From the IMG/VR virus record IMGVR_UViG_3300037882_004080, positions 1 to 37,182 of that record: a stretch of 37,182 bases of DNA; one strand, written 5' to 3'. The translations under genes and the position numbers were made by a program. Origin of the DNA: a virus. Below the pieces are notes generated by a model that worked only from the letters and a program-made list of their open reading frames with translations, made no database searches and was not told where the DNA came from. Below are positions 3,178-29,731 of this stretch, piece after piece; within the stretch, counting starts at the first letter, position 1, and every line of letters starts with the position of its first letter.

Positions 3178-3214
3178 TTGTCCTTGTCCATACCCTGCAA
3201 TGCCCTCATCTTTG
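3178..3214 (+). promoter_or_regulatory. Phage-specific promoter-like module, copy 1
   Basis: TTGTCCTTGTCCA at 3178-3190 is followed by CTTTG at 3210-3214; from the G of the second TTG to the first T of TTTG is 25 bp, the same in all five copies. The -7 half lacks the usual TA (CATCTTTG). The module drives the HU-like and amidase genes. Reading frames that start inside it (TTG = false Met, Ser-Leu-Ser-Ile-Pro) are artefacts of the conserved DNA. Confidence 0.75.
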
Positions 3215-3243
3215 TTGCATTATTTCACTCTAAATTCTTCAAA

Positions 3244-3510
3244 ATGAACGGTTCAGAATTTTATGACAAAATTGCAGAAACAACAGGGATGGACGCTAAA
3301 GACGTTAAGACTGTTTCGGAAGCAATTTTTGACGAACTTCGTAAACAAGCGAACAATGACGAACGAGTAACGATTAGCAACGTAGGTGCTTTCTATGGTG
3401 TTAATGTTGCCGAACGCGTAGGTCGCAATCCTGAAACTGGCGATAAAGTAGTTACGCCCGCGCATCGTGCGTTACGTGTTACCTTCGTCAAAAAATACCG
3501 AAAGCTGTAA
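3244..3510 (+). CDS. HU/IHF-like DNA-binding protein
   Basis: 88 aa, about the usual HU length. N-terminal helices with FYDKIAETTGMDAKDVKTVSEAIFDEL-type spacing are followed by the beta-arm signature: V-T-I-S-N-V-G-A-F near residues 42-50, then GRNPETGDKV (about residues 60-69), matching the HU motif GRNPxTG. HU family proteins bend DNA in replication, packaging or site-specific recombination. I chose ATG 3244 because the upstream in-frame TTG lies inside the promoter module. The amidase gene begins 3 bp after its stop, so the two are co-transcribed. A phage-borne HU could serve at the candidate attP or origin, but this is inference. Confidence 0.88.
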   Translation: MNGSEFYDKIAETTGMDAKDVKTVSEAIFDELRKQANNDERVTISNVGAFYGVNVAERVGRNPETGDKVVTPAHRALRVTFVKKYRKL

Positions 3511-3512
3511 GT

Positions 3513-4091
3513 ATGAGCGCGAAAAACATTCATATCATGCTCGATGCTGGGCACGGTTGGAACACTGAAGGTAAAAGAAGCAATGATGGTACACTCCGCG
3601 AGAATGAATTCAACGAAAGCGTTTTGGCAAAACTCGCTCTCCTCCTTCAACTCAACGGGATTTCTTACACTATTCTTGCACCAGAGTTTCAAGATATTGA
3701 CCTCGCTATTCGTTGCAAGCGCGAGTATGCAGCGCATTATGCCGCGATGAAATTAGGAAAGGAAACTTTCCTAATTTCTATTCACGCGAACTGGAGTGCT
3801 GACCGCCGCGCAAACGGTATCGAAACGTTTTGCGTCAGCGACTACGGCGAAGAATTTGGTAGAAAAATTCAAGAATCTATCGTGCGGGCGACAGGACTTC
3901 GCAATCGCGGGGTTACACGCTGCGGCACGAATGGCTATCCAAACTTCTACATCTTGAAAAATAGCGGCTCGACTGCTATCTTATTAGAATGTGGATTTAT
4001 GAGTAACCCAGAGGAACTAGCACTGCTAAAATCAGATGAATATCGGAATAATGTAGCTCTGGCAATCGCTGACGTTCTTGGAAAAATGTAA
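3513..4091 (+). CDS. N-acetylmuramoyl-L-alanine amidase (Amidase_3 type), endolysin
   Basis: 192 aa. Cleaves the bond between N-acetylmuramic acid and L-alanine in peptidoglycan for lysis. Zinc ligands visible: H14 in DAGHG, E30 in the REN-E-F-N stretch, and H91 in SIHAN. The catalytic Glu is E159 in LLECGFMSNPEE, the standard C-terminal Amidase_3 signature. It consists of the catalytic domain alone, with no signal peptide or cell-wall-binding domain, so export would need a holin or another route. The secreted/membrane protein at 7944 is a candidate partner. It follows the HU-like gene by 3 bp and is closed by a terminator at 4094-4129. Confidence 0.93.
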   Translation: MSAKNIHIMLDAGHGWNTEGKRSNDGTLRENEFNESVLAKLALLLQLNGISYTILAPEFQDIDLAIRCKREYAAHYAAMKLGKETFLISIHANWSADRRANGIETFCVSDYGEEFGRKIQESIVRATGLRNRGVTRCGTNGYPNFYILKNSGSTAILLECGFMSNPEELALLKSDEYRNNVALAIADVLGKM

Positions 4092-4093
4092 TG

Positions 4094-4129
4094 AAACGTG
4101 CTAGACATTAGTGTTTAGCGCGTTTTTTT
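4094..4129 (+). terminator. Rho-independent terminator after amidase
   Basis: A 12-bp stem with two G-U pairs (4096-4107 with 4112-4123) and a 4-nt TTAG loop is followed by seven Ts. Confidence 0.8.
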
Positions 4130-4144
4130 AAATCAATAAAAAAA

Positions 4145-4615
4145 ATGACACATCCTAATCAATTTCGTACTTATTTTAGTGATTTAGTGAGCAATTCGGC
4201 AACTAATCCGAATATTCCTATCAAAATAGAATCATTTTACTATGCCGATGCACGTAGGATTATCGAAGCGAACCGTTCCGAAATAGCCTATCCTACGCTT
4301 TGGTTAGAAGTGCCGAGCATTTCCGAAAAGCATTTTAGCACGAGTGATAAACGTCTGCGCTGGGATATTACGTTTGCTATCTTAAAGTCAAGCGCGATTG
4401 ATGATTATGCCTTGCAAAATGAGATTTGGGATACGACCTTTGATATTGCTAAGGGTGTAATCACACAAATAGAAACAGACAAATCAATATGGAAAATGGA
4501 AGAAAACAGCCTTGTTTTTGTGCCAATTTCAAATGCGCTAACAGACAACGATTACGGCTGGCGCGTGATGCTCCGTGCTGTTTCTAAACAATATTTTAAT
4601 ACTTGTCCAATCTAA
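4145..4615 (+). CDS. Hypothetical phage protein, 156 aa (tail region)
   Basis: Not recognised by motif. Mixed alpha/beta composition with no membrane segment or signal peptide. Position directly upstream of two large tail proteins, and a size near that of tail terminator or tail completion proteins, make a structural role plausible but unproven. The gene starts at ATG 4145 after an A-rich leader (AAAAAAA just before ATG), normal for Bacteroidota. Its stop lies 5 bp before the ATG of the next gene. Confidence 0.7.
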   Translation: MTHPNQFRTYFSDLVSNSATNPNIPIKIESFYYADARRIIEANRSEIAYPTLWLEVPSISEKHFSTSDKRLRWDITFAILKSSAIDDYALQNEIWDTTFDIAKGVITQIETDKSIWKMEENSLVFVPISNALTDNDYGWRVMLRAVSKQYFNTCPI

Positions 4616-4620
4616 AGACT

Positions 4621-6246
4621 ATGATACAAATAATAGACCCGTTCAAAAATAATGGATTTTGGGCTAAAAACCCTATCTTAATTGGCGTTCAAACAGATGC
4701 TTATCTAGCTAATTATAACCAAATGTATGCTTCATTTACGATAGATTTTTCTAGCGGCATACAGTCTTGGTCTATCTTAGAGTTCGCGTGGGGGGCAAAA
4801 AAGGTTACTTTTTATGCGCGTTGGACTTGGCAGAATACGGGCTTTGAAATCCCTTCTTTCGGCACACCAACACAAGCAATAATGGATAATCTTGCGTCTA
4901 TAATTGGCGGCATGACAGATGTGAAAGACGATTGGTTAGTATTAGCGGTCAATTCTACACAATTATCATTTAGCGCAAAAAAAATAGGTTCAGCTTACAG
5001 CCTTGTGTCTTTTACTGTTACGAATAATGGACCTAATCAAGTGACAACGGCGGCAAATTTTCTTGGTGTGGATATAGCTTACAATAAGAATTTTAGCATA
5101 AGATGTAGAATTAACCTTGCGACATCTAACCAAAAAAGGACAAATAGCAGTATAGAATATAAGCAAGTTGCCACGTTGGTCGGTATTCCACAGGAAGACG
5201 CTGCCTTCCCATTTCCTAACCACAGCTGTTATTTTGATGTTGCAGAAATAATTAGCGCGCTTCTTAGCGCGCCAACTCCTTATCACGGATTCAGCGGCGA
5301 ATATGTGATTGCAAATACGCAAATGCGCGAATTTCGCTTAGATTTTTGCGAACAATTCGGAGAGCCAAAAATTAATTATGCTACGGTAAGCTATATAAAT
5401 GCTGCTATTTTGGGCGGTTTAGCCGAAAAAGAATTGGTACAAGCTATCCCAAACCGCTATCATTTTCATAATAACCATAGCACTTCAAATCGCTTCATGA
5501 CTTGGCAGCCGCGCGAGAAATTAGTATCAAAAACTTCAAAAGAGGTATTGCATTTTTATTTGTTCCAAGCCTCTAGTGTACGGAAAAAAACTAAAATCTT
5601 TTATGAAAATGGTACTAGCTTAGTTATAAACAGTGGAGGAATGGGTGTTGATACGACTAAGCATAACATTATTGCGGTCGCTGCGGGGTATGCGGAGGAG
5701 GGAATTGGATTTTGGCAACCCGCCTACAACGTAACGCATTGGGAGGTTTATTTGGAAGATATGGCTACATTCCAACCTTTGTCCGAAACCTTCAAATTTG
5801 TATTAGATAAAAATTGCGGATATGAGCGTAATTTCCTATTCCTAAATGCGCTAGGCGGTTGGGACACAATTCGCACATTAGGAGATAGCCAAACGAGCTT
5901 TAGTATTAGCTCGGTAGAAAACGATAAACCACTCGTCTATGTTCCAGCGACAGGTGTGATTACTTATCAAAACTCAAAAGCAGTTGTATCAAAGGAACTC
6001 AAAAAGAAAATAAAAGTTACTTCGGGCTTATTGAATAAGACGACGATGAAATACTTGCACGATTTTTTAGCTTCGGAATGTGTTTTTGAAGACATCAATG
6101 GCGGTTATCAGCCTATTAGAATTACATCGTCAAATATTTCTACGGTTCAAGAAAGCGATGATTTAAACACATTCGCCTTTGATTATGAATATTTGACAGA
6201 CGAAAACATTTTTTCCGAGGATTCAATACCAGGTTACTTATACTAG
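4621..6246 (+). CDS. Putative tail protein, 541 aa
   Basis: Large, beta-rich protein with many aromatic residues and no signal peptide. Placed after the tape measure/lysis genes and directly before a second large tail protein, which suits a distal tail or baseplate component. An upstream in-frame TTG at 4603 overlaps the previous gene; ATG 4621, 5 bp after that gene's stop, is the better start. The C-terminal part (about residues 460-541) holds KKKIKVTSGLLN and a charged tail, resembling domains that contact partner proteins, but no family could be named. The next gene's ATG follows its stop directly. Confidence 0.7.
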   Translation: MIQIIDPFKNNGFWAKNPILIGVQTDAYLANYNQMYASFTIDFSSGIQSWSILEFAWGAKKVTFYARWTWQNTGFEIPSFGTPTQAIMDNLASIIGGMTDVKDDWLVLAVNSTQLSFSAKKIGSAYSLVSFTVTNNGPNQVTTAANFLGVDIAYNKNFSIRCRINLATSNQKRTNSSIEYKQVATLVGIPQEDAAFPFPNHSCYFDVAEIISALLSAPTPYHGFSGEYVIANTQMREFRLDFCEQFGEPKINYATVSYINAAILGGLAEKELVQAIPNRYHFHNNHSTSNRFMTWQPREKLVSKTSKEVLHFYLFQASSVRKKTKIFYENGTSLVINSGGMGVDTTKHNIIAVAAGYAEEGIGFWQPAYNVTHWEVYLEDMATFQPLSETFKFVLDKNCGYERNFLFLNALGGWDTIRTLGDSQTSFSISSVENDKPLVYVPATGVITYQNSKAVVSKELKKKIKVTSGLLNKTTMKYLHDFLASECVFEDINGGYQPIRITSSNISTVQESDDLNTFAFDYEYLTDENIFSEDSIPGYLY

Positions 6247-7869
6247 ATGAATACATTAAAAATTAACAATCAGGTAGTAAATCTACCTGCGGGCTTTCAA
6301 ATTCCGATTGAACTCAACAATCCAATCTTTGATAAAGATATTATACAAGGCGAATATAGCTTACCAGTCACGCTTAATATTGACAATACAACGATTTTAG
6401 CAATTGGGATAGAGTATTTACCTGATAGTGAAGCTATGCGTGTGAACTTTGATGCTAAACTAACTATATCAGGCTCTGAGCGACCATGTAAATTTAAAAT
6501 TTCTAAGTATTCTAAAACACCGAACGGCATGAAGCTACAAGGTCAATTTTTGTTTAATAGTTCTTCATTTGCTAATAATATTAATACAATAAAGCTACAA
6601 GAATTACTATTAGAAACCTTAAATATCCCTTATCCCTCAATTATTAATTCAACATTAATTACTGCATCACATCGTTTTGAGTTTATTAAAGCTGCAAAAA
6701 GTAATTCGGATTTTTATAATTATGTAGTCGCTCCGCTACGTAATGATACCTTTTTTGATGGAGTAAATATACAGGAGTATTGGCAAAATAAATGGGACCC
6801 ATCTTATCCAAATATTTCAGGACTAACGGGAAATTATGATTTTACAATACCAGACCCTGATGCTAGAGATGCTTTTTGGACACCATTTGTCTATATTAGA
6901 CACATTTTAAAAAAGATAGCAACTCATTTTATGCTTACCCCTGATTTAAATGAGTTTGATGTAGATGTCGAATTAAAACAACTTGTACTATATAATAATG
7001 GCGATGAGTTTAAAGAAATAGTTAAGCCTTTCGGGACATTCTATGCACCGCCTGAAATAATTAACCTGAGTAATCATGTTCCAGCAGTTACAGTTTCAGA
7101 TTTCTTATTAAATCTAAAAAAGATGTTTAACTTATTTATTTATTTTGATGAAAAAAAGAATAAATTTATAGTAAAGACACTACAACAAATTATTAATCTA
7201 AAAGATGAAATAAATTGGACGTTAAAAGTATCTACTTATTATGATATAGAGAAAGTTTTAGATGATAAAAAATTACAATTAATAAGAGCAAATGATACTG
7301 CTGACGAGTTTTTTGCTACTGAAAAAGAAACAAAACACCCTGAAAAAGATAGCGAGAATGTAGAGAAAATTAACTTTGCTATTAGTAAATTAAGAGAAGT
7401 TATTAGAGTAAATGGTGGAGATAACTATGCTGTAAAAACACCGATTGTTAGGCAACAAGGAGAAATAGGCTCTTTTGATAAAAGGGCATATAGTATGAAA
7501 CTAATGTTTTATCGTGGGATGGTACAGACATTAGGGGTACAGGGTAATACTACGCCATCGGGAGAATATCCTTACTTAAATGGAGATAGCTTTGACCAGT
7601 ATGGAAACGATATATATAATCGATCATTAGATTTAGATGGAGACAAAGGTCTTTACAAACAATTTCATGAAAACTGGTGGAGCTTCTACTCCAAGCATCG
7701 AATCCTTACCCTAACCGTAACACTAACAGCAGCAGAAATTTTTGACTTAGATTGGACTAAAAAAGTGAGAATACACAATAGCCTTTTTTATATCAAATCC
7801 ATCAAAGGAAATATTGGCAAAGCAATTGAAAATAATATGACGGTAGAGCTGGTCAAGTTTGAGAATTAG
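6247..7869 (+). CDS. Putative tail/baseplate protein, 540 aa
   Basis: Starts immediately after the preceding stop codon. The N-terminus (LPAGFQIPIELNNPIFD) followed by a polar beta-rich domain, then a middle part with DFLLNLKKMFNLFIYFDEKK near residue 285-305, suggests a tail hub or tail-tip protein. The middle segment resembles the conserved core of baseplate hub proteins only loosely. Codon use is markedly AT-rich (many TTA, ATA, AAT codons) compared with the neighbouring tape measure and tail genes, a hint of a different origin. Its stop lies 2 bp before promoter module copy 2. Confidence 0.65.
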   Translation: MNTLKINNQVVNLPAGFQIPIELNNPIFDKDIIQGEYSLPVTLNIDNTTILAIGIEYLPDSEAMRVNFDAKLTISGSERPCKFKISKYSKTPNGMKLQGQFLFNSSSFANNINTIKLQELLLETLNIPYPSIINSTLITASHRFEFIKAAKSNSDFYNYVVAPLRNDTFFDGVNIQEYWQNKWDPSYPNISGLTGNYDFTIPDPDARDAFWTPFVYIRHILKKIATHFMLTPDLNEFDVDVELKQLVLYNNGDEFKEIVKPFGTFYAPPEIINLSNHVPAVTVSDFLLNLKKMFNLFIYFDEKKNKFIVKTLQQIINLKDEINWTLKVSTYYDIEKVLDDKKLQLIRANDTADEFFATEKETKHPEKDSENVEKINFAISKLREVIRVNGGDNYAVKTPIVRQQGEIGSFDKRAYSMKLMFYRGMVQTLGVQGNTTPSGEYPYLNGDSFDQYGNDIYNRSLDLDGDKGLYKQFHENWWSFYSKHRILTLTVTLTAAEIFDLDWTKKVRIHNSLFYIKSIKGNIGKAIENNMTVELVKFEN

Positions 7870-7871
7870 GC

Positions 7872-7908
7872 TTGTCCTTGTCCATCCCCTCGAATCCCTT
7901 CATCTTTG
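7872..7908 (+). promoter_or_regulatory. Phage-specific promoter-like module, copy 2
   Basis: TTGTCCTTGTCCA at 7872-7884, CTTTG at 7904-7908, followed by CA. Same 25-bp spacing as the other copies. It lies directly after the stop of the tail gene and 35 bp before the start codon at 7944. Confidence 0.75.
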
Positions 7909-7943
7909 CACTGATATATTTTTTAACAAAAAAAAACTGCAAA

Positions 7944-8462
7944 ATGAAGTTCATTTTCCGACTCCTTATCGCTTGTGCGATTTTTGCGTTTGCTCCGAGT
8001 CCTAGTGTCGAAGCGCAAACCCCACGCGGCGGTCCATCTTTGGAAGCTGCGATAGCAGAGCGACAAGCTCCAGTTGCCTTTACGAACCCTGCAAATACCT
8101 TGCAAGAGGTAGATGTTGTCGAAAAAGCAAGCGACATTATTCCTGCGTTAGATACGTTGCAACCGTCAGAAATCCTAAATTATGTGGATTGGTTAGAAAT
8201 TGCGTTGATTAACCTACTTGTATATTTGTCTGCATTTATACCTGGTCTTAATCAAATAAAAACTAAGTCGCGTGCGATTTCAATTGGTCTATTAGTTGCT
8301 TACGGATTCTTTCAATTCAAAGGCGGATTTTTCAAAGCCGTACTAAGTTATTTTGGGTCGCGGAAATTTTACGATTGGATTCTTGTGAATCTTATCCCGA
8401 CTGATAAGATTCCCTTTTGGTTAAGGGCTTTATTTTCACAACCTACTGCACCAGCAGAGTAA
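7944..8462 (+). CDS. Secreted/membrane protein, possible holin-like or lysis-associated
   Basis: 172 aa. Residues 1-24 form a signal peptide (KFIFRLL, then a hydrophobic core to F16, ending SVEAQ, with likely cleavage after A24). A polar linker follows, then hydrophobic segments at about 84-101, 111-124 and 127-138, and a short C-terminal amphipathic region (FWLRALF). A multi-segment membrane protein in the tail/lysis region suits a holin, but a cleavable signal peptide is not usual for holins, so an inner-membrane or periplasm-facing role is possible. ATG 7944 is chosen over an upstream in-frame TTG that falls in the promoter module. A terminator follows at 8476. Confidence 0.6.
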   Translation: MKFIFRLLIACAIFAFAPSPSVEAQTPRGGPSLEAAIAERQAPVAFTNPANTLQEVDVVEKASDIIPALDTLQPSEILNYVDWLEIALINLLVYLSAFIPGLNQIKTKSRAISIGLLVAYGFFQFKGGFFKAVLSYFGSRKFYDWILVNLIPTDKIPFWLRALFSQPTAPAE

Positions 8463-8475
8463 CCCCAAAGAAAAA

Positions 8476-8508
8476 GCCTGTAGCACGAGTTGCTACGGGC
8501 TTTATTTA
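8476..8508 (+). terminator. Rho-independent terminator
   Basis: Stem AGCCTGTAGCA (8476-8486) with TGCTACGGGCT (8492-8502), one T-G pair, loop CGAGT, then a modest T-rich tail. It separates the membrane protein from the tail fibre gene, which has no obvious promoter of its own, so read-through is likely. Confidence 0.7.
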
Positions 8509-8531
8509 ATTCATTTAAAATCCTTATCATA

Positions 8532-12627: not shown

Positions 12628-12664
12628 TTGTCCTTGCTCAGACCTTATGCCAACGGTAACTTTG
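12628..12664 (+). promoter_or_regulatory. Phage-specific promoter-like module, copy 3
   Basis: TTGTCCTTGCTCA at 12628-12640 (two bases swapped relative to copy 1) and CTTTG at 12660-12664, then TGCA. The 25-bp TTG-to-TTTG distance is kept. It drives the operon 12681-16035 including the portal gene. Confidence 0.7.
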
Positions 12665-12680: not shown

Positions 12681-13010
12681 ATGCAAGAAATTTCAGTCGC
12701 ACAAATGTTCGCCGCAATGGAAGCTGCTACAGATACCGACGAGTTAAATCCATTTTCTTTTACTTATGTAAAAGCAGATGGTTCGCTCAAGAAAGTAGCG
12801 CGCGCAGTAAAAGGTTGGAAAGCATCAGATGCTACCCAAGCAGCTAAAACAACTACATTAATAGAACCCAAATCAAATTCAAAATATAGAACAAATTTGA
12901 AGGCGAAAAGGCTTGTGCTTTTGAAAGACATGGATAGAAAAGACGAGCCACCGCATAGCTACAAGTTTGACCAAATTATTATTTTTAACGGTTTTAAAGT
13001 TCGCAGATAA
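12681..13010 (+). CDS. Hypothetical phage protein, 109 aa
   Basis: First gene behind promoter module copy 3, with ATG 17 bp after the CTTTG box. Small basic protein, C-terminus NGFKVRR, no signal or membrane segment. The next small gene starts inside its stop (TAATG), indicating translational coupling. Located between terminase and portal. Function unknown. Confidence 0.7.
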   Translation: MQEISVAQMFAAMEAATDTDELNPFSFTYVKADGSLKKVARAVKGWKASDATQAAKTTTLIEPKSNSKYRTNLKAKRLVLLKDMDRKDEPPHSYKFDQIIIFNGFKVRR

Positions 13011-15234: not shown

Positions 15235-16035
15235 ATGGACGTAACAATAAATAACGAATCTTACTATGTCCCTTCTACTTGGGGCGATCTAAATCAAGAA
15301 GAAGTCCTTCTTTTTTGTCAAATCCCTTACGCCACTGCGCCCCATCAAGCTAGGTTACTCCTACTTTCTATGTTTATCCCTTTCGATAAACTAGAATTAT
15401 TAACAGCCGAACAGCTCACGCAGCTACTAGATAGCGTATTTGCTTTTACGGAAACCAACTTCACAACGCCACTCATCAAGTATTTTGAAATAAAAGAAAC
15501 TAAATACCTACTACCCGATGCCGAGTTCGCCAACCTCAACATAGCCGAATTCGCCTATGCAGATAACAACTACCAAGAGTTATTCGGGATAGGAAATCAT
15601 GCTAACCAAGCCAACCCCGCAGCGATAAATAAACTTATTGCTACACTTTGCCGTCCCCGTCGACAGCAGGTCGAAATCGAAGACCCAAAATGGAACGGCG
15701 ACTACCGCCAAACCTTTAACCCCCATAAAATCCCAACCGAACTATTCTCTACCGAACTATCCGAAGCCCAGCGGCTTTACTTTCTCAAATATTATGAGAG
15801 CTGCAAGGCGGCTCTCTATCAAAAATATGAGATTATATTCAATAAAAAGAAGACAAAACAGAACACTAATAAATCCTTCAAACAAACTATAAATTTCGGA
15901 TGGGCAGGTATTATATTCGACCTAGCGGAGGCAGGAATCTTCGGAGAGAAAGACAAGGTCGCCTACGAAAACCTACACGACATCTGCTACTACCTCTCTA
16001 AAAAACAATATGAGTTCGATGCCCAAGACATTTAA
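15235..16035 (+). CDS. Possible tail assembly chaperone-like protein, 266 aa
   Basis: Starts at ATG 15235, 6 bp after the previous stop. Features: N-terminal TWGDLNQEEVLLF (about residues 15-27), LPDAEFANLNIAEFAYAD (about 93-110), a Lys-rich linker (NKKKTKQNTNKS) and a conserved-looking C-terminus FGWAGIIFDLAEAGIFG with YYLSKKQYEFD. Proteins of this build sit upstream of tape measure genes in some Bacteroidota phages. Here it is at the end of the portal operon, so the role is inferred only. A strong terminator follows. Confidence 0.6.
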   Translation: MDVTINNESYYVPSTWGDLNQEEVLLFCQIPYATAPHQARLLLLSMFIPFDKLELLTAEQLTQLLDSVFAFTETNFTTPLIKYFEIKETKYLLPDAEFANLNIAEFAYADNNYQELFGIGNHANQANPAAINKLIATLCRPRRQQVEIEDPKWNGDYRQTFNPHKIPTELFSTELSEAQRLYFLKYYESCKAALYQKYEIIFNKKKTKQNTNKSFKQTINFGWAGIIFDLAEAGIFGEKDKVAYENLHDICYYLSKKQYEFDAQDI

Positions 16036-16050
16036 TATTTAGCAATTGCC

Positions 16051-16088
16051 AAAAAAATACCGCAAATATCCTTTGCGGTATTTTTTTT
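16051..16088 (+). terminator. Strong Rho-independent terminator ending the portal operon
   Basis: TACCGCAAA (16058-16066) pairs with TTTGCGGTA (16072-16080), preceded by seven As and followed by eight Ts, so it can work in both directions. Confidence 0.9.
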
Positions 16089-16224
16089 CATAAATACCTA
16101 ATAATCAGCAACTTATTACATTTTTTGCTTTTTTTATTGCGGTGTTTCACGCGCTGATGTGCGGTGCGCCCTATACCTTTTTTGGCAATTGCCATTTTTT
16201 AAATGGTGTTATCTGTACAGGGAA

Positions 16225-16260
16225 TGTCCTTGTCCAGCATGAAAATAATTCCGACACTTG
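16225..16260 (+). promoter_or_regulatory. Phage-specific promoter-like module, copy 4
   Basis: TGTCCTTGTCCA at 16225-16236 and CACTTGCA with CTTG at 16257-16260, where the other copies have TTTG. Spacing is identical. It is the most diverged copy and precedes the methylase gene by 26 bp. Confidence 0.6.
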
Positions 16261-16285: not shown

Positions 16286-17122
16286 ATGAATCAAAAACAA
16301 GCGGCGGCTATACGCACACCTATCACTTATTATGGTGGTAAACAGAATCTTGTGGGTGCCATCTTACCTCTTATTCCTCTACACAATTGTTATGTAGAAC
16401 CCTTCTTCGGAGGAGGAGCTATTTTTTGGGCGAAACAACCGTCGCAAGTTGAAGTGATTAATGACTTAAATCAATTTGTGATTAATTTCTACCGCATTGC
16501 TAAAAATGAGTTTAATGCTTTGCAGGAACTCATATCCGCTACACCTTTGAGCCGTATTTGTTATAAAGATGCTCAAATAATGTATGACAATCCGCATTTG
16601 TTTTCTGACCTTCAAAAAGCGTGGGCATTTTGGGTTTTGACTAACCAAGGTTTTGTTGGAAAAATTGGAAGTTGGGGCTATGGAACAAAGGATAATAAAC
16701 GCGAATTAAATATTGCTAATAAGCGTTTGCAATTCAAAAACAAATTTAGTGAGCGTTTAGAGTTAGTACAAATGGAATGTTCTGATGCTAATCGAATAAT
16801 TAAGCTAAGAGATAGAGTGGACACATTCTTCTACTGCGACCCTCCGTATGTTGGGTCTAATCAGGGACACTATGGCGGCTATACAGATGAACACTTTGGC
16901 GAGCTCCTTACTAGCTTAAGTAATGTACAGGGTAAGTTCTTATTATCTTCATTTCCAAATGAATTACTTAACCAATTTACAAAACAGTTCGGTTGGCATA
17001 CAATAGAAATAGAGATGCCATGTAGTTCTTCCAAGGATCGAAAGATTAAAAAAGAAGTGCTAACAGCGAACTATGATATTAATGCTATGAGAAATAATGC
17101 TCACGCGGTGAGCGATGTATAA
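16286..17122 (+). CDS. DNA adenine N6-methyltransferase (D12 class, Dam-like)
   Basis: 278 aa. Transfers methyl from S-adenosylmethionine to adenine N6 in a short DNA target. Visible motifs: N-terminal TPITYYGGKQ (residues 11-20), AdoMet-binding YVEPFFGGGAIFW (about 36-48), catalytic DPPY at 185-188, and FLLSSFPNE (about 220-230). Length fits the D12 class. No restriction partner is nearby, so it likely protects phage DNA from host restriction or marks it for regulation. ATG 16286 is chosen because the longer frame from 16142 runs through the promoter module. It is terminated by the hairpin at 17157. Confidence 0.93.
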   Translation: MNQKQAAAIRTPITYYGGKQNLVGAILPLIPLHNCYVEPFFGGGAIFWAKQPSQVEVINDLNQFVINFYRIAKNEFNALQELISATPLSRICYKDAQIMYDNPHLFSDLQKAWAFWVLTNQGFVGKIGSWGYGTKDNKRELNIANKRLQFKNKFSERLELVQMECSDANRIIKLRDRVDTFFYCDPPYVGSNQGHYGGYTDEHFGELLTSLSNVQGKFLLSSFPNELLNQFTKQFGWHTIEIEMPCSSSKDRKIKKEVLTANYDINAMRNNAHAVSDV

Positions 17123-17250: not shown

Positions 17251-17282
17251 TTTGAATATAAGTAATAAATACATTACCTTTG
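17251..17282 (+). promoter_or_regulatory. Bacteroidota-type promoter of hicA, set for a leaderless mRNA
   Basis: TTTG at 17251-17254 and TACCTTTG at 17275-17282, spacer 20 bp. The hicA ATG starts at 17287, only 4 bp after the -7 box, so the transcript should begin at or next to the start codon. Confidence 0.85.
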
Positions 17283-17286
17283 TAGT

Positions 17287-17472
17287 ATGAAAGCAAGGGA
17301 GTTAATCAAAATCATCGAGGGTGTAGGTTGGTATGAAGTGCGGCAGAAAGGAAGCCACAAGGTTTTCCAAAATGCGGAACAAAACTTCAATATCGTAATA
17401 CCTGACCACGGGGCAAAAGACTTAGGTGTCGGATTGGTTTCCAAGATTTTGAAACAGGCAGGGCTTAAATAG
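17287..17472 (+). CDS. hicA: HicA-type mRNA interferase toxin
   Basis: 61 aa, the usual size. HicA toxins have a double-stranded-RNA-binding-like fold and cleave mRNA in a translation-independent way. The active-site His is H24 in QKGSHKVF, followed by IVIPDHG and KDLGVGLVSKILKQAGL, the classic C-terminal pattern. The antitoxin gene follows 48 bp downstream. The promoter lies at 17251 with almost no leader. The stop codon is inside a perfect hairpin. In a phage, the pair could stabilise the prophage or act against competing phages (family knowledge, not shown here). Confidence 0.92.
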   Translation: MKARELIKIIEGVGWYEVRQKGSHKVFQNAEQNFNIVIPDHGAKDLGVGLVSKILKQAGLK

Positions 17473-17478
17473 CCCTGC
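17458..17478 (+). other. Hairpin spanning the hicA stop codon (possible attenuator)
   Basis: Perfect 8-bp stem GCAGGGCT/AGCCCTGC with loop TAAAT; a T-run (seven Ts) starts about 9 nt later. It may lower transcription of hicB from the hicA promoter or protect the hicA mRNA end. Confidence 0.6.
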
Positions 17479-17520
17479 TTCCCTTGTTTTTTTATTAATT
17501 AATTTAAAAATAATTTAGAG

Positions 17521-17925
17521 ATGAATTTAACAATCGTTTTGGAAAAAAGTAATGGCGAATGGTGTGGTAGTTGCGATGCTCCGCACACCTTTATAAGCAC
17601 GACAGGCGAAAGCGTTGAGGAGATAAAATCAAATGTTGTTATGCTTTTAGAAGACCATTTGGAGTTTGATGGCGCAACACAAGCGGAATGGCAAGGGATT
17701 ACTATTAATGATATTGGTTTTGATTATCAGTATGATTTGAGTTCTTTGTTTGAGCAATTTAAGGTATTGAATGTATCTGAAATTGCGGCAAAGGCTGGCG
17801 TAAATAAGAGCCTGTTATTGCAATATAAGCGCGGACTTAAACACGCTTCACAGAAGCAAGCAAAACGAATTGAACAAACGATACATGAATTAGGAACTGA
17901 ATTATTGGCTGTTTCGGTGGCGTGA
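17521..17925 (+). CDS. hicB: HicB-type antitoxin with C-terminal helix-turn-helix
   Basis: 134 aa. The N-terminal part (MNLTIVLEKSNGEWCGSCDA, then TTGESVEEIKSNVVMLLEDHL) is the partial RNase H-like HicB fold that binds HicA. The C-terminal part (about residues 78-130, with SEIAAKAGVNKSLLLQYKRG) is a DNA-binding helix-turn-helix for autorepression. Gene order toxin then antitoxin is normal for hicAB. The start is ATG 17521 after AATTTAGAG. No canonical promoter of its own is visible in the 48-bp gap. Confidence 0.9.
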   Translation: MNLTIVLEKSNGEWCGSCDAPHTFISTTGESVEEIKSNVVMLLEDHLEFDGATQAEWQGITINDIGFDYQYDLSSLFEQFKVLNVSEIAAKAGVNKSLLLQYKRGLKHASQKQAKRIEQTIHELGTELLAVSVA

Positions 17926-23156: not shown

Positions 23157-23190
23157 TGCCGCCTTGGCAAAGGTCAAGGCGGTATTTTTA
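23157..23190 (+). terminator. Rho-independent terminator before the primase operon
   Basis: CCGCCTTG (23159-23166) pairs with CAAGGCGG (23175-23182), extended by two weaker pairs, then a T-rich tail. Confidence 0.8.
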
Positions 23191-23225
23191 TTGCTTATTC
23201 TTAAAAATATGTTAGAATAAATTAT

Positions 23226-23390
23226 ATGAAAAAATGGCAGATACTAGCAAGGTGTAACGTAGATTATACATTGCACAAGCTATATTTTTTAGGTAAAACT
23301 AAGACCGAAGCGAAAATCGCTTTCAATAATCTCTATTCAAAAAATTTTACTTATGCTGGTCAATTTGGCTGCGTGAGTATGTATTTATAA
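23226..23390 (+). CDS. Small hypothetical protein, 54 aa
   Basis: MKKWQILARCNVDYTLHKLY to GCVSMYL. Starts at ATG 23226 after an A-rich leader; the next gene starts 6 bp after its stop. The sequence suggests a small beta-alpha fold with KTKTEAKIAFNNLYSK as the helix. Not recognised. No canonical promoter is visible between the terminator and this gene. Confidence 0.55.
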   Translation: MKKWQILARCNVDYTLHKLYFLGKTKTEAKIAFNNLYSKNFTYAGQFGCVSMYL

Positions 23391-23396
23391 AAAATT

Positions 23397-23636
23397 ATGT
23401 CAAATACAACATTCATATATAAACAAGTCGAAGTGGAAATCTTAAAAGAATTTTGCTTTGAAGGTCGTTGCTTTTTTATCGTAGATGCCGACCAATTTGA
23501 ATCGTATCTATTACTTACTGATACTGGTATCAAAGTAGCTGAAATTCGCCTAGTTGGTTCTGTCGAGATAGCGACAAAATCCGCGATTAAGTTTTTAAGT
23601 TGTATGTCAAATCTAAATATAAACTTAAATGTATGA
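23397..23636 (+). CDS. Hypothetical protein, 79 aa
   Basis: ATG 23397. Beta-rich, with YKQVEVEILKEFCFEGRCFFIV at the N-terminus. Its stop overlaps the primase start (ATGA at 23633-23636), so the two are probably translated together. Not recognised. Confidence 0.65.
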   Translation: MSNTTFIYKQVEVEILKEFCFEGRCFFIVDADQFESYLLLTDTGIKVAEIRLVGSVEIATKSAIKFLSCMSNLNINLNV

Positions 23637-26600
23637 TTGCTAATGCTGAAAAAATAAAAACCTCCGTACTGATGACAGAAGTGCTAGAACATTTTAATAT
23701 TAATGTTCAGTACGGCAAATGTGCGTGTCCAATACATCAAGGTAAAGACAAAAACTTTGTTGTAAAAAAGGAATTTGCAACTTGTTTTTCCCAATGTGGC
23801 GGTAAAACATGGGATGCAGTAGGTTTTGTGATGGACTATTGCAACATGGATTACCGCGAAGCTTTGGAGGAATTAGCAAAGATTGGCAAGGTATCTATTG
23901 AGTACCAAACAGGTAATTATGACCATTTTGTAAAGGTAACTAAGGAGGAGAAGGAGCATAAGCAAGTGCTTTGGGAATTGAATAAAAGTGTCGCAAATGC
24001 TTATTTTGCCAACTTTTTGAGTATTTCAAAAGCGCAAGGCTTTGATGAAAAAGATGGTTTTTGCATTGATAAGCGGGCGTACAAATTTGACACAATTAAG
24101 GCTTTTGGCGTAAGCTATACGCTTGGCTCTTTTCTGATAAAAGAGTTTGTTTCGAGAAGGTGGGAATATAAACACCTCGAAGAATTAGGCTTAATCCATA
24201 AGCGAGATGGTTCGCCGTATGATTATTTTTACAACCGTTTTCTTTTTCCAGTTCAAGATGATAAAGGTAATATTGTCGGTTTTGGGGCAAGAAAAAGTAA
24301 TAGCGACAAGAGCGAAAGCCCGAAGTATCTAAACTCAAAAGACTCTCTCGTTTATAAAAAATCAGAGATTTTATACGGATTGCATCAGAATAAACTTACT
24401 ATTAAAAAGGCTGATAATGCCTTATTAGTTGAAGGATATACTGATGTAATGACGATGTTTGATTTTGATATTAAACAAGCCGTTGCAAGTTGTGGTACAG
24501 CATTTACACTTGATCATGCAAAGTTACTGAAGCGTTATACAGATAATGTAACAATGCTTTTTGATGGCGATGCGGCAGGGATTAAAGCTGCAAAAAAAGC
24601 GATTGAACCGCTTTTGATGGCAGGACATAAGGTAAAGGTGTGTCTTTTACCTATTGATTTAGATGCTACAAATGCAGAAATCGAAAAAGCTAAAAAAGCA
24701 GATGCTTTTAGCAAAGAAGCGGAGGAGAGTGGTACTTATAATAAGTTCCATGACCCTGATTCTTTTTTGCGAAAGCATGGAAAAAAGGCTTTTGATTTAC
24801 ACGTTGAGGAACTCTCGCAAGATGCAATAATTTGGCGTATTGGTTTAGAGTTTGACGAAAAAAAGACTTCTGCATCGGAACAAGTAAAGGCTTTTGATAT
24901 TGCTACTAAACTGCTTGGAATGATTGACGAGGATTATCACGAGTTCTATTACAAGGAGTTATCGCAAAAAGATATGCTCGGAACTGGTGCAGGGAAGCGA
25001 ATCATGAAAGGCTTGCGAAAAGTTGAGCAAATTAGGCAGGAGAAAGCCAAGCAAAAAGATTGGACTCCAGAGCAACTCAAAGATATACAGCTTTACGGTT
25101 TAGTGATTGAAGATAAGAAATACAAGGTAGCGTATGGCGCAAATGACTGTTATGAAATTTGCAATTTTTACATGAATCCAATTATGCTCGTCAAAAGTGC
25201 TGATGTTGCTTGGCGGATATTGGAAGTTATCAATGAGTTTAATATTAAGCATACGATTAAGATTAACACTGATGATATGGTGGAGTTAGGTAATTTTAAA
25301 AAGATTTTAGCGCGCCTTGGTAACTATGTTTACACTGGTAAGCCTGAAAATTTTGTAAAAATCCAACGAAAAATTTACAACGAAACGCCTGAGTGTTATA
25401 ATGTTAGAAAATTAGGTTGGCAAAAAACTGGTTTTTATGCGTGGGGCAACGGAATTACAACAATTAAAGGAGAATTTAAGCCCGTTGATGAATATGGTGT
25501 GGTCGCTCATGGCGAGAATAAGTTTTTCTTACCCGCTTTTTCAAAAATAAACACCCAAGATATGTTTGACGAAGAAACGATGTATGATGAGGAGAAACAG
25601 TTTGTGTTTACTCCTGGTCTAATTGCAGATAACCAAGGTAAAGAAATCACTTGGTGTGATTATACTAAGAAATTTGTAGAAGTACACGGTAATAATGGAA
25701 TTATTGGCTTATGTTTTTACTTAGCGGCTTTGCATCGGAGTGTAGTCTATAAAAGGTTAGATTTTTTCCCTATCTTAAATTTATTTGGACCCAAGGGCGC
25801 AGGTAAATCATTCATGGCAAAATCTATAATGTACTTTTTTGGCGATGCTCAACAAGGCTTTAACCTAATGCAAGGAACGCAAGTAGCTTTTTATAGAAAA
25901 TTATCGAAAATAAATGATGGCTGCGTTTGGTTTGATGAATATCAGAATAATGTCGAAATTAAAAGGGTGGAAGCATTAAAGGATAGCTATGATGGAGGAG
26001 GGCATCAGAAAGGCTCTAAGGAAAACGAAGATATGGTCAAGAAAGTAGCTGTAAAATCAGCTATCGTTATGTCTGGGCAAGAACAGCCAACGCAGGATAT
26101 TGCACTATTTACAAGATGTATTTCTTTGAACTTTCCGAAAGAAGATGAAAACGATGCGCGTGATGCACGAGGTCGTGACCTCCGAAAGATTGAAAAACGC
26201 TTACAATTGACACAATTTACAGCGAGAATGTTACAGCATAGAGATTTGATTGATAGCGAGTTCTCAGATACCTTTGAGAAACTCCGACAAGAACTTACTC
26301 CGCGTTTGAAAGATTTGAATCTTGAAACATTGATAGATAGAACAATTAATAATTACTTAGTGCCTTTGACGGTATTTAAGATTATTTCGCAAAAAGAAGA
26401 ATTTGGCTTTACTTACGAGGAATTATTGGCAATTTGCATTGAAAATATCGCTACTCAAACTCGGGCGATGGGTCAAGAAGATGAAGTTTCAACATGGTGG
26501 AAGTTAATCTCGTTTTTTGCTTCGACAGGTTTAATTAATCACGGCGAAGATTTAATCGTTCAAAAAGTGGATAAGCTAACCTTAATGAAGCACGACAAAA

Positions 26601-26977
26601 CAACTGAAACAAAGATATTTGAAGGCAATAAAACGGTATTATTCTTACGATTTGATAAGAGCTTCGCGCTCTACCGCGAACATCATAGTCGGCAATATAA
26701 GAAGAACGGAATGCCTGAGAGCTCAATTAAGTATTACCTGGACCAACATCATGCAAAAATTGGTATTGTGAAAGGCAAGAAGTTCTCCAATGGCACATTT
26801 CTTTGTTGGGCGTTTGACTTAGATAAGCTGAATATTGAGTTACCACTAACGATAGAAGTAAAAGGAGTAGATGGCGAATTGAAAATCTCGATTGAAGAAG
26901 AAAATAAACCGCCGTTGCAATCCGCAGGTTGGGATAAGGTAGATTCACTGATAACAGATACTGATTTACCATTTTAG
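23633..26977 (+). CDS. Fused DNA primase-helicase (CHC2 zinc finger, TOPRIM, P-loop ATPase)
   Basis: 1,114 aa; start ATG 23633 overlaps the previous stop, whereas a frame from 23600 lies within that gene. Synthesises RNA primers and probably unwinds DNA at the phage fork. Zinc-binding domain: C32-PI-H35 and C51-FSQ-C55. TOPRIM primase core: LLVEGYTD with E267 and LFDGDAAG with D311/D313. C-terminal ATPase: Walker A GPKGAGKS (719-726) and Walker B VWFDEY (D768, E769). A final winged-helix-like region follows (residues about 1000-1090). One protein combines the roles that lambdoid phages split. It is the last gene before the candidate origin repeats. Confidence 0.93.
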   Translation: MIANAEKIKTSVLMTEVLEHFNINVQYGKCACPIHQGKDKNFVVKKEFATCFSQCGGKTWDAVGFVMDYCNMDYREALEELAKIGKVSIEYQTGNYDHFVKVTKEEKEHKQVLWELNKSVANAYFANFLSISKAQGFDEKDGFCIDKRAYKFDTIKAFGVSYTLGSFLIKEFVSRRWEYKHLEELGLIHKRDGSPYDYFYNRFLFPVQDDKGNIVGFGARKSNSDKSESPKYLNSKDSLVYKKSEILYGLHQNKLTIKKADNALLVEGYTDVMTMFDFDIKQAVASCGTAFTLDHAKLLKRYTDNVTMLFDGDAAGIKAAKKAIEPLLMAGHKVKVCLLPIDLDATNAEIEKAKKADAFSKEAEESGTYNKFHDPDSFLRKHGKKAFDLHVEELSQDAIIWRIGLEFDEKKTSASEQVKAFDIATKLLGMIDEDYHEFYYKELSQKDMLGTGAGKRIMKGLRKVEQIRQEKAKQKDWTPEQLKDIQLYGLVIEDKKYKVAYGANDCYEICNFYMNPIMLVKSADVAWRILEVINEFNIKHTIKINTDDMVELGNFKKILARLGNYVYTGKPENFVKIQRKIYNETPECYNVRKLGWQKTGFYAWGNGITTIKGEFKPVDEYGVVAHGENKFFLPAFSKINTQDMFDEETMYDEEKQFVFTPGLIADNQGKEITWCDYTKKFVEVHGNNGIIGLCFYLAALHRSVVYKRLDFFPILNLFGPKGAGKSFMAKSIMYFFGDAQQGFNLMQGTQVAFYRKLSKINDGCVWFDEYQNNVEIKRVEALKDSYDGGGHQKGSKENEDMVKKVAVKSAIVMSGQEQPTQDIALFTRCISLNFPKEDENDARDARGRDLRKIEKRLQLTQFTARMLQHRDLIDSEFSDTFEKLRQELTPRLKDLNLETLIDRTINNYLVPLTVFKIISQKEEFGFTYEELLAICIENIATQTRAMGQEDEVSTWWKLISFFASTGLINHGEDLIVQKVDKLTLMKHDKTTETKIFEGNKTVLFLRFDKSFALYREHHSRQYKKNGMPESSIKYYLDQHHAKIGIVKGKKFSNGTFLCWAFDLDKLNIELPLTIEVKGVDGELKISIEEENKPPLQSAGWDKVDSLITDTDLPF

Positions 26978-27016
26978 TTTTTTAGGAGTAGGGAAAAGAG
27001 CCTTACTCCTAAAAAA
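26978..27016. other. Long hairpin after the primase gene
   Basis: TTTTTTAGGAGTA pairs with TACTCCTAAAAAA (stem from about 26978 to 27016) with inner GG/CC pairs. There is no T-run after the stem on the + strand, so it is not a textbook terminator for the primase. It may still stop or pause transcription from either side. Confidence 0.6.
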
Positions 27017-27050
27017 AATTTTACTTTGAAATTCCATATAGGCAAAAATC

Positions 27051-27371
27051 GGTACAATCGGTACAACTTGGTACAATCTCTAATAATATAATTATATAAT
27101 ATTATTGATTATCAATAAGTTAGCTATAAAAACACGGTTGTACCAAGTTGTAAAATAGTTGTACTTTGGTTGTATTCCGTACAACTTGGTACAACCGAGT
27201 ACAAGTCTAAGGACAAAAAAGACCTTCGGTTGTACGATTGGACAACCGTACAACCGCATACAACCGCTTTTACAACCGCTACACAACCGTAAAATAATAC
27301 ATATATTATTGATTATCAACAATATATATAATTAAATATTTTAAGGTTGTACTGGTTGTACCGATTGTACC
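27051..27371. repeat. Iteron-like repeat array, candidate replication origin
   Basis: At least 15 copies of the 7-mer GGTACAA or close variants, on both strands. Exact: 27051, 27060, 27070, 27188, and as TTGTACC at 27138, 27356 and 27365. Near matches: 27159, 27170, 27178, 27198, 27230, 27347. A run of five ACAACCG at 27242, 27250, 27260, 27272 and 27283. Two AT-rich segments (about 27077-27130 and 27295-27345) each carry the same 17-mer ATATTATTGATTATCAA (27099 and 27303). An IHF-like match TATCAATAAGTTA is at 27110-27122. No gene is credible from 26978 to 27428. Iterons plus AT-rich unwinding regions next to a primase-helicase fit a replication origin. Confidence 0.65.
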
Positions 27372-27428
27372 GATTTTTGTGTGGTTGTGGAAAAAAAATA
27401 TTTTTTTATTTAAATTTTTTTAAAAAAA

Positions 27429-27728
27429 ATGACACAAGAAAATTTCAATTACGCCGAAATAATGCCAAAATGGCTCGGCGAACCGATGTACCCGTTTGGA
27501 CTACCTATAGGTTCTGATAATTATTCTTACGATGGGAATAGTATTTTGAAAATCTACTGCGCTCCACGCGGGGTAGAAGATAGAAAGGTAGCCGCCGCAT
27601 GGGTGGATTATTATGTGCAAGCTCCAATTTGGGCAATGGACAAGGAAACTTTACAAAAAATCCTCGCTGCGGCAAGCGTTACCGAAAAGATACAATTATG
27701 CTTAGAGATTGGGCTTGACCCATTTTAA
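27429..27728 (+). CDS. Hypothetical protein, 99 aa
   Basis: First gene after the repeat array, ATG preceded by a long A-run. Trp/Tyr-rich (MPKWLGEPMYPFGLP, WVDYYVQAPIWAM), with a C-terminal helix. Not recognised. No canonical promoter is seen in the array, so transcription probably reads through from the primase. Confidence 0.65.
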   Translation: MTQENFNYAEIMPKWLGEPMYPFGLPIGSDNYSYDGNSILKIYCAPRGVEDRKVAAAWVDYYVQAPIWAMDKETLQKILAAASVTEKIQLCLEIGLDPF

Positions 27729-27805
27729 TTCACTTAAAAGTTAATACAAAGGCAAAAAATAGCAATATTACTATTCGTAGTATAAATATAGCTAACTTCT
27801 TAAAA

Positions 27806-28078
27806 ATGGAATTGAGTGAAGCACAAGAGAGATTAGAGGGTACTCCATGCCCCAACGAGGCTCTATTATTAAGAACGAGGCTGAATACGATTCGCTATGA
27901 ATTAATCCCTTTTCTCATAGAAAAAGAACCCTTAGTTAATCCTCTAAATGTAAAATATATGCTAGAAGAGCTACATCGCGATATACAGCGTGATGCGTTA
28001 CATTATGATAAAAACGAGCTAATCCGCGCAATTGAATACATTAAAGAACTAAATGAAATGATAAAAAACAATAATTAA
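27806..28078 (+). CDS. Small helical protein, 90 aa, sharing a motif with the 252-aa protein
   Basis: ATG 27806. Residues 9-25, LEGTPCPNEALLLRTRL, match LEQTPYPNTALIAKARL of the coiled-coil protein encoded at 9893. The conserved pattern is L-E-x-T-P-x-P-N-x-A-L followed by a basic helix. The remainder is helical and acidic/basic mixed. No family is recognised. The shared block may be a small helical interaction module used twice by this phage. Confidence 0.65.
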   Translation: MELSEAQERLEGTPCPNEALLLRTRLNTIRYELIPFLIEKEPLVNPLNVKYMLEELHRDIQRDALHYDKNELIRAIEYIKELNEMIKNNN

Positions 28079-28098
28079 TTCATCTAAAATAAAACAAT

Positions 28099-28623
28099 AT
28101 GTATTTTAAAGTAAAAAACACAACAAAATTATTTGGACAGCTAAAAGTTATCCAAACACGAATTATCAAAGCCAACGCTGCCGCCTCGGCACTTGCTAAG
28201 GAGCTAGGCAACGAAGATTATTATCGAAAAGGCTATCCGTATATCGGTGGAGGAATCTCCGCATTTGAAAGTAAAACTCGACCTAGTGGCTGGGCAAGCA
28301 TGGCTGCTAAATTTGGACAACCTAACCTCTATATGCCAAAAAAGCACTCTAAGGGCAAGGCACTGTGGGATAAAATAGAAGCTCTACCGCTTGTAAAAAA
28401 TGAAGAAGTCTATGAAATAATAGGCTATCCAAACGGCTTAATGGTCACGCCTGGCATTCGTTTTGGCAACGAAGTATTCTTAATCCAAATAGACGATACA
28501 ATTGCCTATACACCCGTAAAAGGTATGACAGAAATCCTGTCTTCGGAATTTAAAAAATTATCTGATTTAATTGATGTAGAATATGTTGAAGACTATAAAG
28601 AAGAAAGTACAGAAACTAATTAA
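28099..28623 (+). CDS. Hypothetical protein, 174 aa
   Basis: ATG 28099 after an A-rich leader, 20 bp past the previous gene. Contains IIKANAAASALAKELG (helix, about residues 22-37), YPYIGGGISAFESK, and a beta-rich C-terminal half ending with an acidic tail (EDYKEESTETN). No motif recognised. The next gene begins 41 bp before its stop. Confidence 0.65.
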   Translation: MYFKVKNTTKLFGQLKVIQTRIIKANAAASALAKELGNEDYYRKGYPYIGGGISAFESKTRPSGWASMAAKFGQPNLYMPKKHSKGKALWDKIEALPLVKNEEVYEIIGYPNGLMVTPGIRFGNEVFLIQIDDTIAYTPVKGMTEILSSEFKKLSDLIDVEYVEDYKEESTETN

Positions 28624-28975
28624 TTACTATAATCGCGAAAAACGATTTGTAGAGTTACTCGCTGCCGAAGGCTGGCGCAAAACGAGCGAACTCCAATTTG
28701 AGTTCGCTGGTAATTATCGCTTTGAAAAAGGCGATTATATCCTTCATCATCAAGTAGGGCAAAAAACAGAATTGTTCTATCAGTATAAAAAAATTGAAGA
28801 ATATAAGCAATATCTCACGCAGCGCGACATCGGCAGAATATTCTATCTAACTAACACGCAAACAATAAAATCGCAACAGAGCTTGCTAGTTGAAATACTA
28901 GATATACTAGATAATGACAGAGAGATACAGCCACATAGCGAGTTACATAAACGATTAAAAGCTATAAATAAATAG
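28583..28975 (+). CDS. Hypothetical protein, 130 aa
   Basis: The start ATG 28583 lies within the previous gene (41-bp overlap); no later ATG fits, and the N-terminus is Lys-rich (MLKTIKKKVQKL). If the overlapping part is not translated, the protein starts near INYYNREKRFVELLAAEGW. It contains paired beta strands (ELQFEFAGNYRFEKGDYILHH) and a C-terminal helix with DILDNDREIQPHS. Function unknown. Confidence 0.55.
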   Translation: MLKTIKKKVQKLINYYNREKRFVELLAAEGWRKTSELQFEFAGNYRFEKGDYILHHQVGQKTELFYQYKKIEEYKQYLTQRDIGRIFYLTNTQTIKSQQSLLVEILDILDNDREIQPHSELHKRLKAINK

Positions 28976-29112
28976 TTTATTTTAATTGTGTCGAACGTTA
29001 CTGCCAACGCAGGCGGCACGTCCAAAACAATCAATTAACCGCAGAACTTTAAGCCGCTTGACGGTGGCAGAGTGTTCTACGAATTTTCTAATCACTTAAT
29101 TTAAAGTTTATT

Positions 29113-29613
29113 ATGCCTAATTATATCAAAAATTTATTAGTTATTCGTTCAGAAAAAGTGAATGAATTTTTAGACAAAATAAAATCAACAAAACATAATG
29201 ACGTTCCTGTTGATTTTGAAAAAATTATTGAACCTCCTTTAAATATGTTTCGTGGCAATCTTTCATCTGCCGATGAAGCAAGATGTAAAGAGCAAAATAT
29301 TCCAACTTGGCTTGACTGGCAAAAGGCGAATTGGGGTACAAAATGGAATGCAATGGAAAGTAATATTTTATTCAAATCAGATAAAATAGTAGCAATTACA
29401 TTTGATACAGCATGGACTACGCCAAAACCAATTATTAACTGGATTTTTGATTATTTTACATCAAAATCAGATGAAGTTAGTTTTTTTACAGCTTGTGAAG
29501 GAGGATATTTTGCTGAAAGAAAATACAAAGGGGAATATGACAATTATGATTATATTTCAGTAGAAAGTAATCCCAAAGATTTTGTTCATTCTCTTTTAGC
29601 TTCTATTTCGTAG
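29113..29613 (+). CDS. Api92/YubB-like ferredoxin-fold protein
   Basis: 166 aa. N-terminus MPNYIKNLLVI, then NWGTKWNA (residues 73-80) and FDTAWTTPKPII (97-108) are the landmarks of the Api92/YubB ferredoxin-like domain family found on plasmids and phages; its function is not established. Codon use is more AT-rich than the neighbouring head genes. The gene is bracketed by short inverted repeats (GTCGAACG at 28990 and CGTTCGAC at 29664) and followed by a long hairpin, suggesting a self-contained accessory insert. Confidence 0.8.
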   Translation: MPNYIKNLLVIRSEKVNEFLDKIKSTKHNDVPVDFEKIIEPPLNMFRGNLSSADEARCKEQNIPTWLDWQKANWGTKWNAMESNILFKSDKIVAITFDTAWTTPKPIINWIFDYFTSKSDEVSFFTACEGGYFAERKYKGEYDNYDYISVESNPKDFVHSLLASIS

Positions 29614-29618
29614 AACAA

Positions 29619-29663
29619 ATACTTTTACGAAGTGCCGCTCTTGCGGCATTTTCGTAAAAGTAT
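29619..29663 (+). other. Long hairpin downstream of the Api92-like gene
   Basis: ATACTTTTACGAA pairs with TTCGTAAAAGTAT (13 bp), then TGCCGC with GCGGCA (6 bp) around TCTT. There is no T-run after it, so it is a strong RNA structure rather than a standard terminator. It lies 33 bp before promoter module copy 5. Confidence 0.75.
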
Positions 29664-29695
29664 CGTTCGACGCACAACCTGCCGCTTACAATACC

Positions 29696-29731
29696 TGTCC
29701 TTGTCCACCACCTTCTTCTGCTGCAACTTTG
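29696..29731 (+). promoter_or_regulatory. Phage-specific promoter-like module, copy 5
   Basis: TGTCCTTGTCCA at 29696-29707 and CTTTG at 29727-29731, then CA. It drives the head genes. The ATG begins at 29736, only 4 bp after the box, as at hicA. Confidence 0.75.

Follow-up and report, generated by a model that had tools for sequence, protein, structure and literature searches.

Sequence evidence for phage-specific late promoters of Bacteroidota phages in which the -33 element is replaced

Introduction

Promoters of the primary sigma factor of Bacteroidota (sigma-A/sigma-ABfr) carry TTTG at -33 and TAnnTTTG at -7. The virus record IMGVR_UViG_3300037882_004080, analysed here whole and on one strand (37,182 bases, hereafter the window), presents five intergenic sites in which a TTGTCC repeat stands at a fixed distance from a TTTG box, and an earlier note on this DNA had proposed that they are late promoters read by a factor of the phage. 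The locus therefore raises two questions: whether these sites represent a promoter class particular to phages, and which protein could turn them on. Regarding the first, the comparison of related phages strongly supports a predicted class of late promoters, specific to phages and with another element in place of the host -33 box, that is common to a wide group of Bacteroidota phages. Regarding the second, the five sites are probably activator-dependent late promoters served by the host sigma-A polymerase, the candidate activator being the product of the gene at 2639-3175.

Results

The pattern TGTCCTTG-N24-[TC]TTG was found five times on the + strand of the window and never on the - strand or in a reversed control, while in 300 sequences simulated with a first-order Markov model the average was 0.003. 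The TGTCCTTG words start at 3179, 7873, 12629, 16225 and 29696, which agrees with the strand and positions reported earlier, and the distance of 25 from the G of the second TTG to the TTTG was recovered in all five copies. Since the TTG-to-TTTG distance is the same as in the host-type promoters of the window, the repeat covers the -33 box and the bases just upstream of it. Copy 1 (3179-3214), with TGTCCTTG at -40 to -33 and CATCTTTG as its -7 box, lies ahead of the genes for HU (ATG at 3244) and an amidase. Copy 2 (7873-7908; TGTCCTTG and CATCTTTG) precedes the genes of a 172-amino-acid membrane protein and of the fibre. Right behind the terminase stop codon and ahead of the portal operon is copy 3 (12629-12664; TGTCCTTGCTC and TAACTTTG), under which stands a pre-portal gene of 109 amino acids (12681-13010, + strand) whose family is the one most often found behind this promoter in relatives. 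Copy 4 (16225-16260; TGTCCTTG and GACACTTG) is ahead of a D12-class DNA adenine methylase (ATG at 16286), and copy 5 (29696-29731; TGTCCTTG and CAACTTTG) of the first head gene (29736-31034, + strand), whose ATG at 29736 lies 4 nucleotides past the TTTG, at the predicted +1, so that its message would be leaderless. The intergenic placement holds for copy 4 as well, which falls within an open reading frame (ORF) only if the methylase is given an implausible upstream GTG start; its ATG at 16286 follows the motif.

Two other features of the initial description could be upheld only in part. The TTGTCC tandem is perfect at 3178 and 7872, but copies 4 and 5 lack the first T and the second unit of copy 3 reads TTGCTC. 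The -7 half had been said to lack the TA of host promoters; nevertheless, the A of this TA is present in all five copies and copy 3 has a complete TAnnTTTG (TAACTTTG).

Relatives of the phage were found by terminase alignment (10 loci from bacterial genomes and 73 from viral contigs), and a further one is the cultured Polaribacter phage Leef_1. The motif was counted in 23 terminase-related phage records of full or nearly full length, oriented by the terminase. In this set the + (coding) strand had 40 occurrences of TGTCCT-N26-[TC]TTG and the - strand a single one. A spacing of N25 gave 8 sites on + and 5 on -, two of them Leef_1 sites, and the remaining spacings were at background. A count of 7-mers by their distance from TTTG, made blind to the motif, recovered TGTCCTT at -32 in two distant relatives whose terminase identity is only 24%. 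For gene context and start geometry, 50 sites were placed on genes. As expected from the suggestion that related phages should carry the motif upstream of structural genes, the sites stand ahead of genes for the head, portal, terminase and tail; the genes that follow are those for the capsid, the pre-portal protein, the terminase, the tape measure and further virion proteins.

The composition of these sites shows which parts of the motif are shared. At 35 of the 40 sites an A is found three bases ahead of TTTG (-11), a position outside the search pattern, and therefore the downstream half can be read as the host sigma-A -7 box (TAnnTTTG), apparently relaxed in its first T only: AnnTTTG is kept, its TTG being fixed by the design of the search, and the T ahead of the -11 A occurs at 13 of the 40 sites and is not conserved. 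On the upstream side, TGTCCT is followed by T in 28 sites and by A in 12; it spans and lies just upstream of positions -36 to -33, which begin with CTT or CTA in place of the host TTTG at -33. A second TGTCC 6 base pairs past the first was observed in this window only. The common core is thus best described, from the aligned sites, as TGTCCT[T/A] at -40 to -34, and the TTGTCC tandem appears to be particular to this phage; of the repeat once put forward as the recognised element, the core is conserved in relatives and the tandem is not. The full tandem was also tried as a common motif and discarded: the exact form TGTCCTTGTCCA-N20-CTTTG had 7 matches in viral contigs, and the matches listed looked like coding-type repeats, in contigs not tied to the clade and in some cases near-identical to one another.

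The position of start codons provided an additional line of evidence. In flavobacteria the sigma-A box TAnnTTTG occupies -12 to -5 (PMC9723704), and since the box ends at -5, +1 is the fifth base past TTTG. The ATG of an open frame was located exactly 4 nucleotides past TTTG, that is, at this predicted +1, in 15 of the 50 sites, compared with 29 of 7,000 control [TC]TTG words (0.4%), and an open ATG within 40 nucleotides was present at 44 of the 50 sites versus 19% of the controls. This geometry supports real promoters and predicts leaderless late messenger RNAs (mRNAs). In the hosts, leaderless mRNAs are rare: they amount to 5.5% in Flavobacterium psychrophilum (PMC9723704), and in Bacteroides thetaiotaomicron about 3.7% of the 5' untranslated regions are under 10 nucleotides (PMC7366714). 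For the late genes of the clade, translation may start mainly on leaderless messages. It can be mentioned separately that the start codon lies exactly 4 nucleotides past TTTG, with the same leaderless prediction, at 29728-29738 and at the host-type promoter of hicA (17251-17295).

The motif does not behave as a promoter of the hosts. TGTCCTW-N22-A-NN-TTTG showed no excess over the reversed-pattern control in 198 Bacteroidota genomes, and a host promoter class was rejected, the counts being at the level of that control. The clearest cluster in these genomes consisted of three matches within 8 kilobases (kb) on contig G223:C16, which carries the gene of the candidate activator and was also found independently through that gene. 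In this way, strand, spacing, gene context, the leaderless start geometry in relatives and the lack of host-chromosome excess support the proposal of a phage-specific late promoter class.

The core itself presented variants. TGTCCTA was found at the same place in relatives without TGTCCTT (G008, G009, G010, G016, G035, G223 and mostly G044), CGTCCTA in G007, G121 and G369, GTTCCTA in G006, and TATCCTA at one G044 site; GTTACTA in G005 is perhaps another variant, and the cases with two copies (G005, G006 and G007) are only suggestive. A group of loci (L060, L061, L063, L067 and L068) carries the repeated word GTnnTTTTA near -31 together with a complete TAnnTTTG; the family of the candidate activator is represented there by a divergent member. 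A de-novo search in G003, G004 and G030 gave no convincing core.

The candidate gene (2639-3175, + strand, 178 amino acids) ends 2 nucleotides ahead of the TTGTCC tandem of copy 1 and sits under a host-type promoter (2581-2612, + strand; TTTG...TATCTTTG), one of those listed in the earlier note. That note recognised no activator and supposed that a small gene might encode it; the comparison now points to this one gene, of a family which is undescribed. Its protein had no match in Pfam (E 0.01) or PHROGs, Pfam and PHROG scans of other family members were uninformative, and a sequence search of the PDB gave no relative. Of the 23 records, 19 have a member of the family (gp39 in Leef_1), and a profile search added most of the other relatives. 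Within 150 nucleotides past the stop codon of 15 members, TGTCC appeared 16 times on the + strand against 0.95 expected (17-fold) and once on the - strand against 2.1 expected. This enrichment is the highest of all families common to four or more records, and part of it is simply the first late promoter. Behind the gene, G031 has three TGTCC words 11-12 base pairs apart, G007 several GTCC words, and G021 (L125) four GTCC words about 20 base pairs apart (two helical turns), which look like an array of predicted binding sites.

A profile search of 395 Bacteroidota genomes yielded five with the candidate gene. In four prophage regions around it (G223, G369, G121 and G044), [TC][GA]TCCT sites were found 14 times on the strand of the gene and once on the opposite one; no sites were present within 15 kb in G175 and G045. 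In G369 and G121 a site lies directly behind the gene, with an ATG 4 nucleotides past TTTG, and a further site ahead of the gene in G121 suggests self-activation. AlphaFold2 models of two family members were fair (pLDDT 80 and 85), and Foldseek with the candidate model returned nothing below E 1.9. The 2639-3175 product is a good candidate for the factor that would turn the promoters on.

Discussion

Activator-dependent phage promoters (class II or sigma-appropriation-like) keep a host -10-type box and have, at a set distance from it, a box that overlaps the -35 element or takes its place; both features were found at these sites. We infer that transcription would start here under positive regulation, as follows. 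The host RNA polymerase with its primary sigma factor would read the retained [T/C]AnnTTTG -7 box, and a phage protein would bind TGTCCTT at -40 to -34, where region 4 of sigma would seek TTTG; this protein would replace the weak or missing -33 contact and hold the polymerase at one fixed distance (N26). On prophage induction, expression would begin with the candidate, driven by the host-type promoter at 2581; the protein would then bind the promoter adjoining the end of its gene, as well as the other four late promoters, so that the lysis, tail, portal, methylase and head genes would be switched on.

Several observations weigh against the candidate. The family is nearly universal in the clade and includes members in G003, G004 and G030, without a detectable TGTCC core, and therefore co-occurrence alone does not single it out; conversely, G039 and G041, near-complete carriers of the motif, have no detectable family member. 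The adjacency of gene and promoter could be explained by the place of the gene ahead of the late block. Core types do cluster on the tree of the family (7 changes versus 14.3 in shuffles), which fits a joint change of protein and site, but plain common descent predicts the same. Residues 1-87 of the model from the window resembled the tandem ribbon-helix-helix protein TraY weakly (Z 5.6, root-mean-square deviation 3.2 over 83 residues); this likeness was absent with the model of the second family member, and we do not claim a TraY-like fold.

Part of these observations would be explained if the promoters were late promoters of the host polymerase but TGTCCT were read by another phage protein, such as the product of an early gene in 27.4-29.6 kb or the P22_AR_N antirepressor, with the 2639-3175 gene merely standing ahead of the late block. 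We regard this as unlikely, although worth keeping in mind. No other family common to four or more records had a comparable enrichment of adjacent TGTCC, and the genes in 27.4-29.6 kb have no counterpart in families widespread across the motif carriers. Furthermore, the GTCC arrays and the sites ahead of the candidate gene in several phages exceed what one neighbouring promoter would give.

A role of TGTCCT as the operator of a phage repressor, silencing in the lysogen late promoters that would otherwise be ordinary sigma-A promoters, seems improbable to us. The site does overlap -33, a usual position for repressors, and the phage is, judging from its integrase and repressor-like genes, temperate. 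However, a strong promoter under repression should keep the TTTG at -33 and the TA at -7, whereas here -33 reads CTTT, CTTG or CTA and the T of the TA is present at 13 of 40 sites. The poor -33 and the incomplete -7 are what one would expect of promoters that need help, which makes an operator less likely; in addition, a repressor would have no need of the rigid N26 to the -7 box. We give very little credit to an alternative sigma factor encoded by the phage that would read both halves (TGTCCT and AnnTTTG): the fixed spacing of two boxes and the confinement of the promoters to these phages would suit it, but the -7 half remains the host box, no sigma-like protein appeared when the genes searched were scanned with Pfam or PHROGs, and the structures that best matched the candidate were not sigma factors. 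Finally, a repeated signal other than a promoter (packaging, recombination or control at the RNA level), as repeated intergenic sequence in a phage genome might suggest, is scarcely credible given the strict strand and spacing, the host -7 box, the start codons at the predicted +1, the late-gene context in many phages and the lack of any Rfam match in the window.

The phage sites agree with the sigma-A promoters of Bacteroidota in overall spacing, in the TTTG of the -7 box and in the A at -11, and differ in having TGTCCT[T/A] at -40 to -34 instead of the -33 TTTG, an unconserved first T and no excess in host chromosomes. The proposed activation by a phage protein has parallels in other phages. 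Middle promoters of T4 combine a MotA box with the sigma70 -10 element through sigma appropriation (PMC6755090, PMC2988021); as here, a host -10-type box is kept and the host -35 element is replaced by the box of a phage protein at a fixed distance, but phylum, sequence and gene class (here late, not middle) are different. No relatives of MotA or AsiA were seen among the Pfam and PHROG matches of the genes scanned, which did not include every small ORF. In phage Mu, Mor is the middle and C the late activator (PMC4390567, PMC4461284). Their sites overlap -35 or lie just upstream of it, the host sigma is used and C serves late genes; in contrast to the short non-palindromic core described here, tandem only in this phage, the Mor site is a 16-base-pair inverted-repeat element centred at -43.5, and no sequence relation to Mor or C was found.

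A cultured case is Leef_1, of the genus Leefvirus in the Helgolandviridae (PMC8776804). Its terminase and portal are related, and it carries three TGTCCTTT promoters (2475, 10520 and 30638) and, as homologue of the candidate, gp39; it differs by a spacing of N25 at two of the three sites and by having no tandem. The paper describing it does not mention promoters (PMC8776804), and in the open-access literature, to which our search was confined, we found no late promoter class or late-transcription regulator described for Bacteroidota phages. The principle is known from other phages; what is new, to our knowledge, is the promoter, the host group and the candidate family.

On balance, we lean towards a clade-wide late-gene switch of Bacteroidota siphophages, in which a hitherto unrecognised family of DNA-binding activators, found in almost all members of the clade, would reprogram the sigma-A polymerase towards promoters whose -33 element is replaced, with a core that varies by lineage (TGTCCTT, TGTCCTA, CGTCCTA, GTTCCTA and possibly GTnnTTTTA) and with many late mRNAs leaderless. 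With the promoter consensus, late operons of uncultured phages can be annotated, and the activator family named here is open to testing, for which Leef_1 offers a cultured phage. If the proposal is true, a phage activator that works with the unusual sigma of Bacteroidota would offer a means of controlling gene expression in these hosts, and the change of the core from lineage to lineage would constitute a natural experiment on the joint change of promoter and factor.

Other features of the window

The window begins within a tail tape-measure-like frame and ends past the P22_AR_N antirepressor gene. The genes identified in it encode HU, an amidase, the terminase, a portal-like protein, the D12 methylase, HicA, a tyrosine integrase, a repressor-like helix-turn-helix protein and a DnaG-type primase. 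Between the methylase and the integrase, at 17287-17925, the HicA toxin gene (Pfam match) is followed by a 134-amino-acid gene that looks like its HicB partner and has no Pfam match. Among the head genes, an ORF of 524 amino acids (33089-34663) with the look of an ISKra4-like transposase lies between 42-nucleotide inverted repeats (83% complementary) at 32976-34720; it had no match in Pfam, and the region looks like the insertion of an insertion sequence. At 36260-36620, downstream of a host-type promoter, two terminator-like hairpins and a long leader precede the P22_AR_N antirepressor gene; neither matched Rfam. Inverted GGCAATTGCC-like arms with GTGCGCCC close by were observed at 16029-16205, possibly a cos region. 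Leef_1 has been reported as Cos 3', and several relatives carry GGCAATTGCC...AAAGGGCGC right behind the terminase, close to the contig ends.

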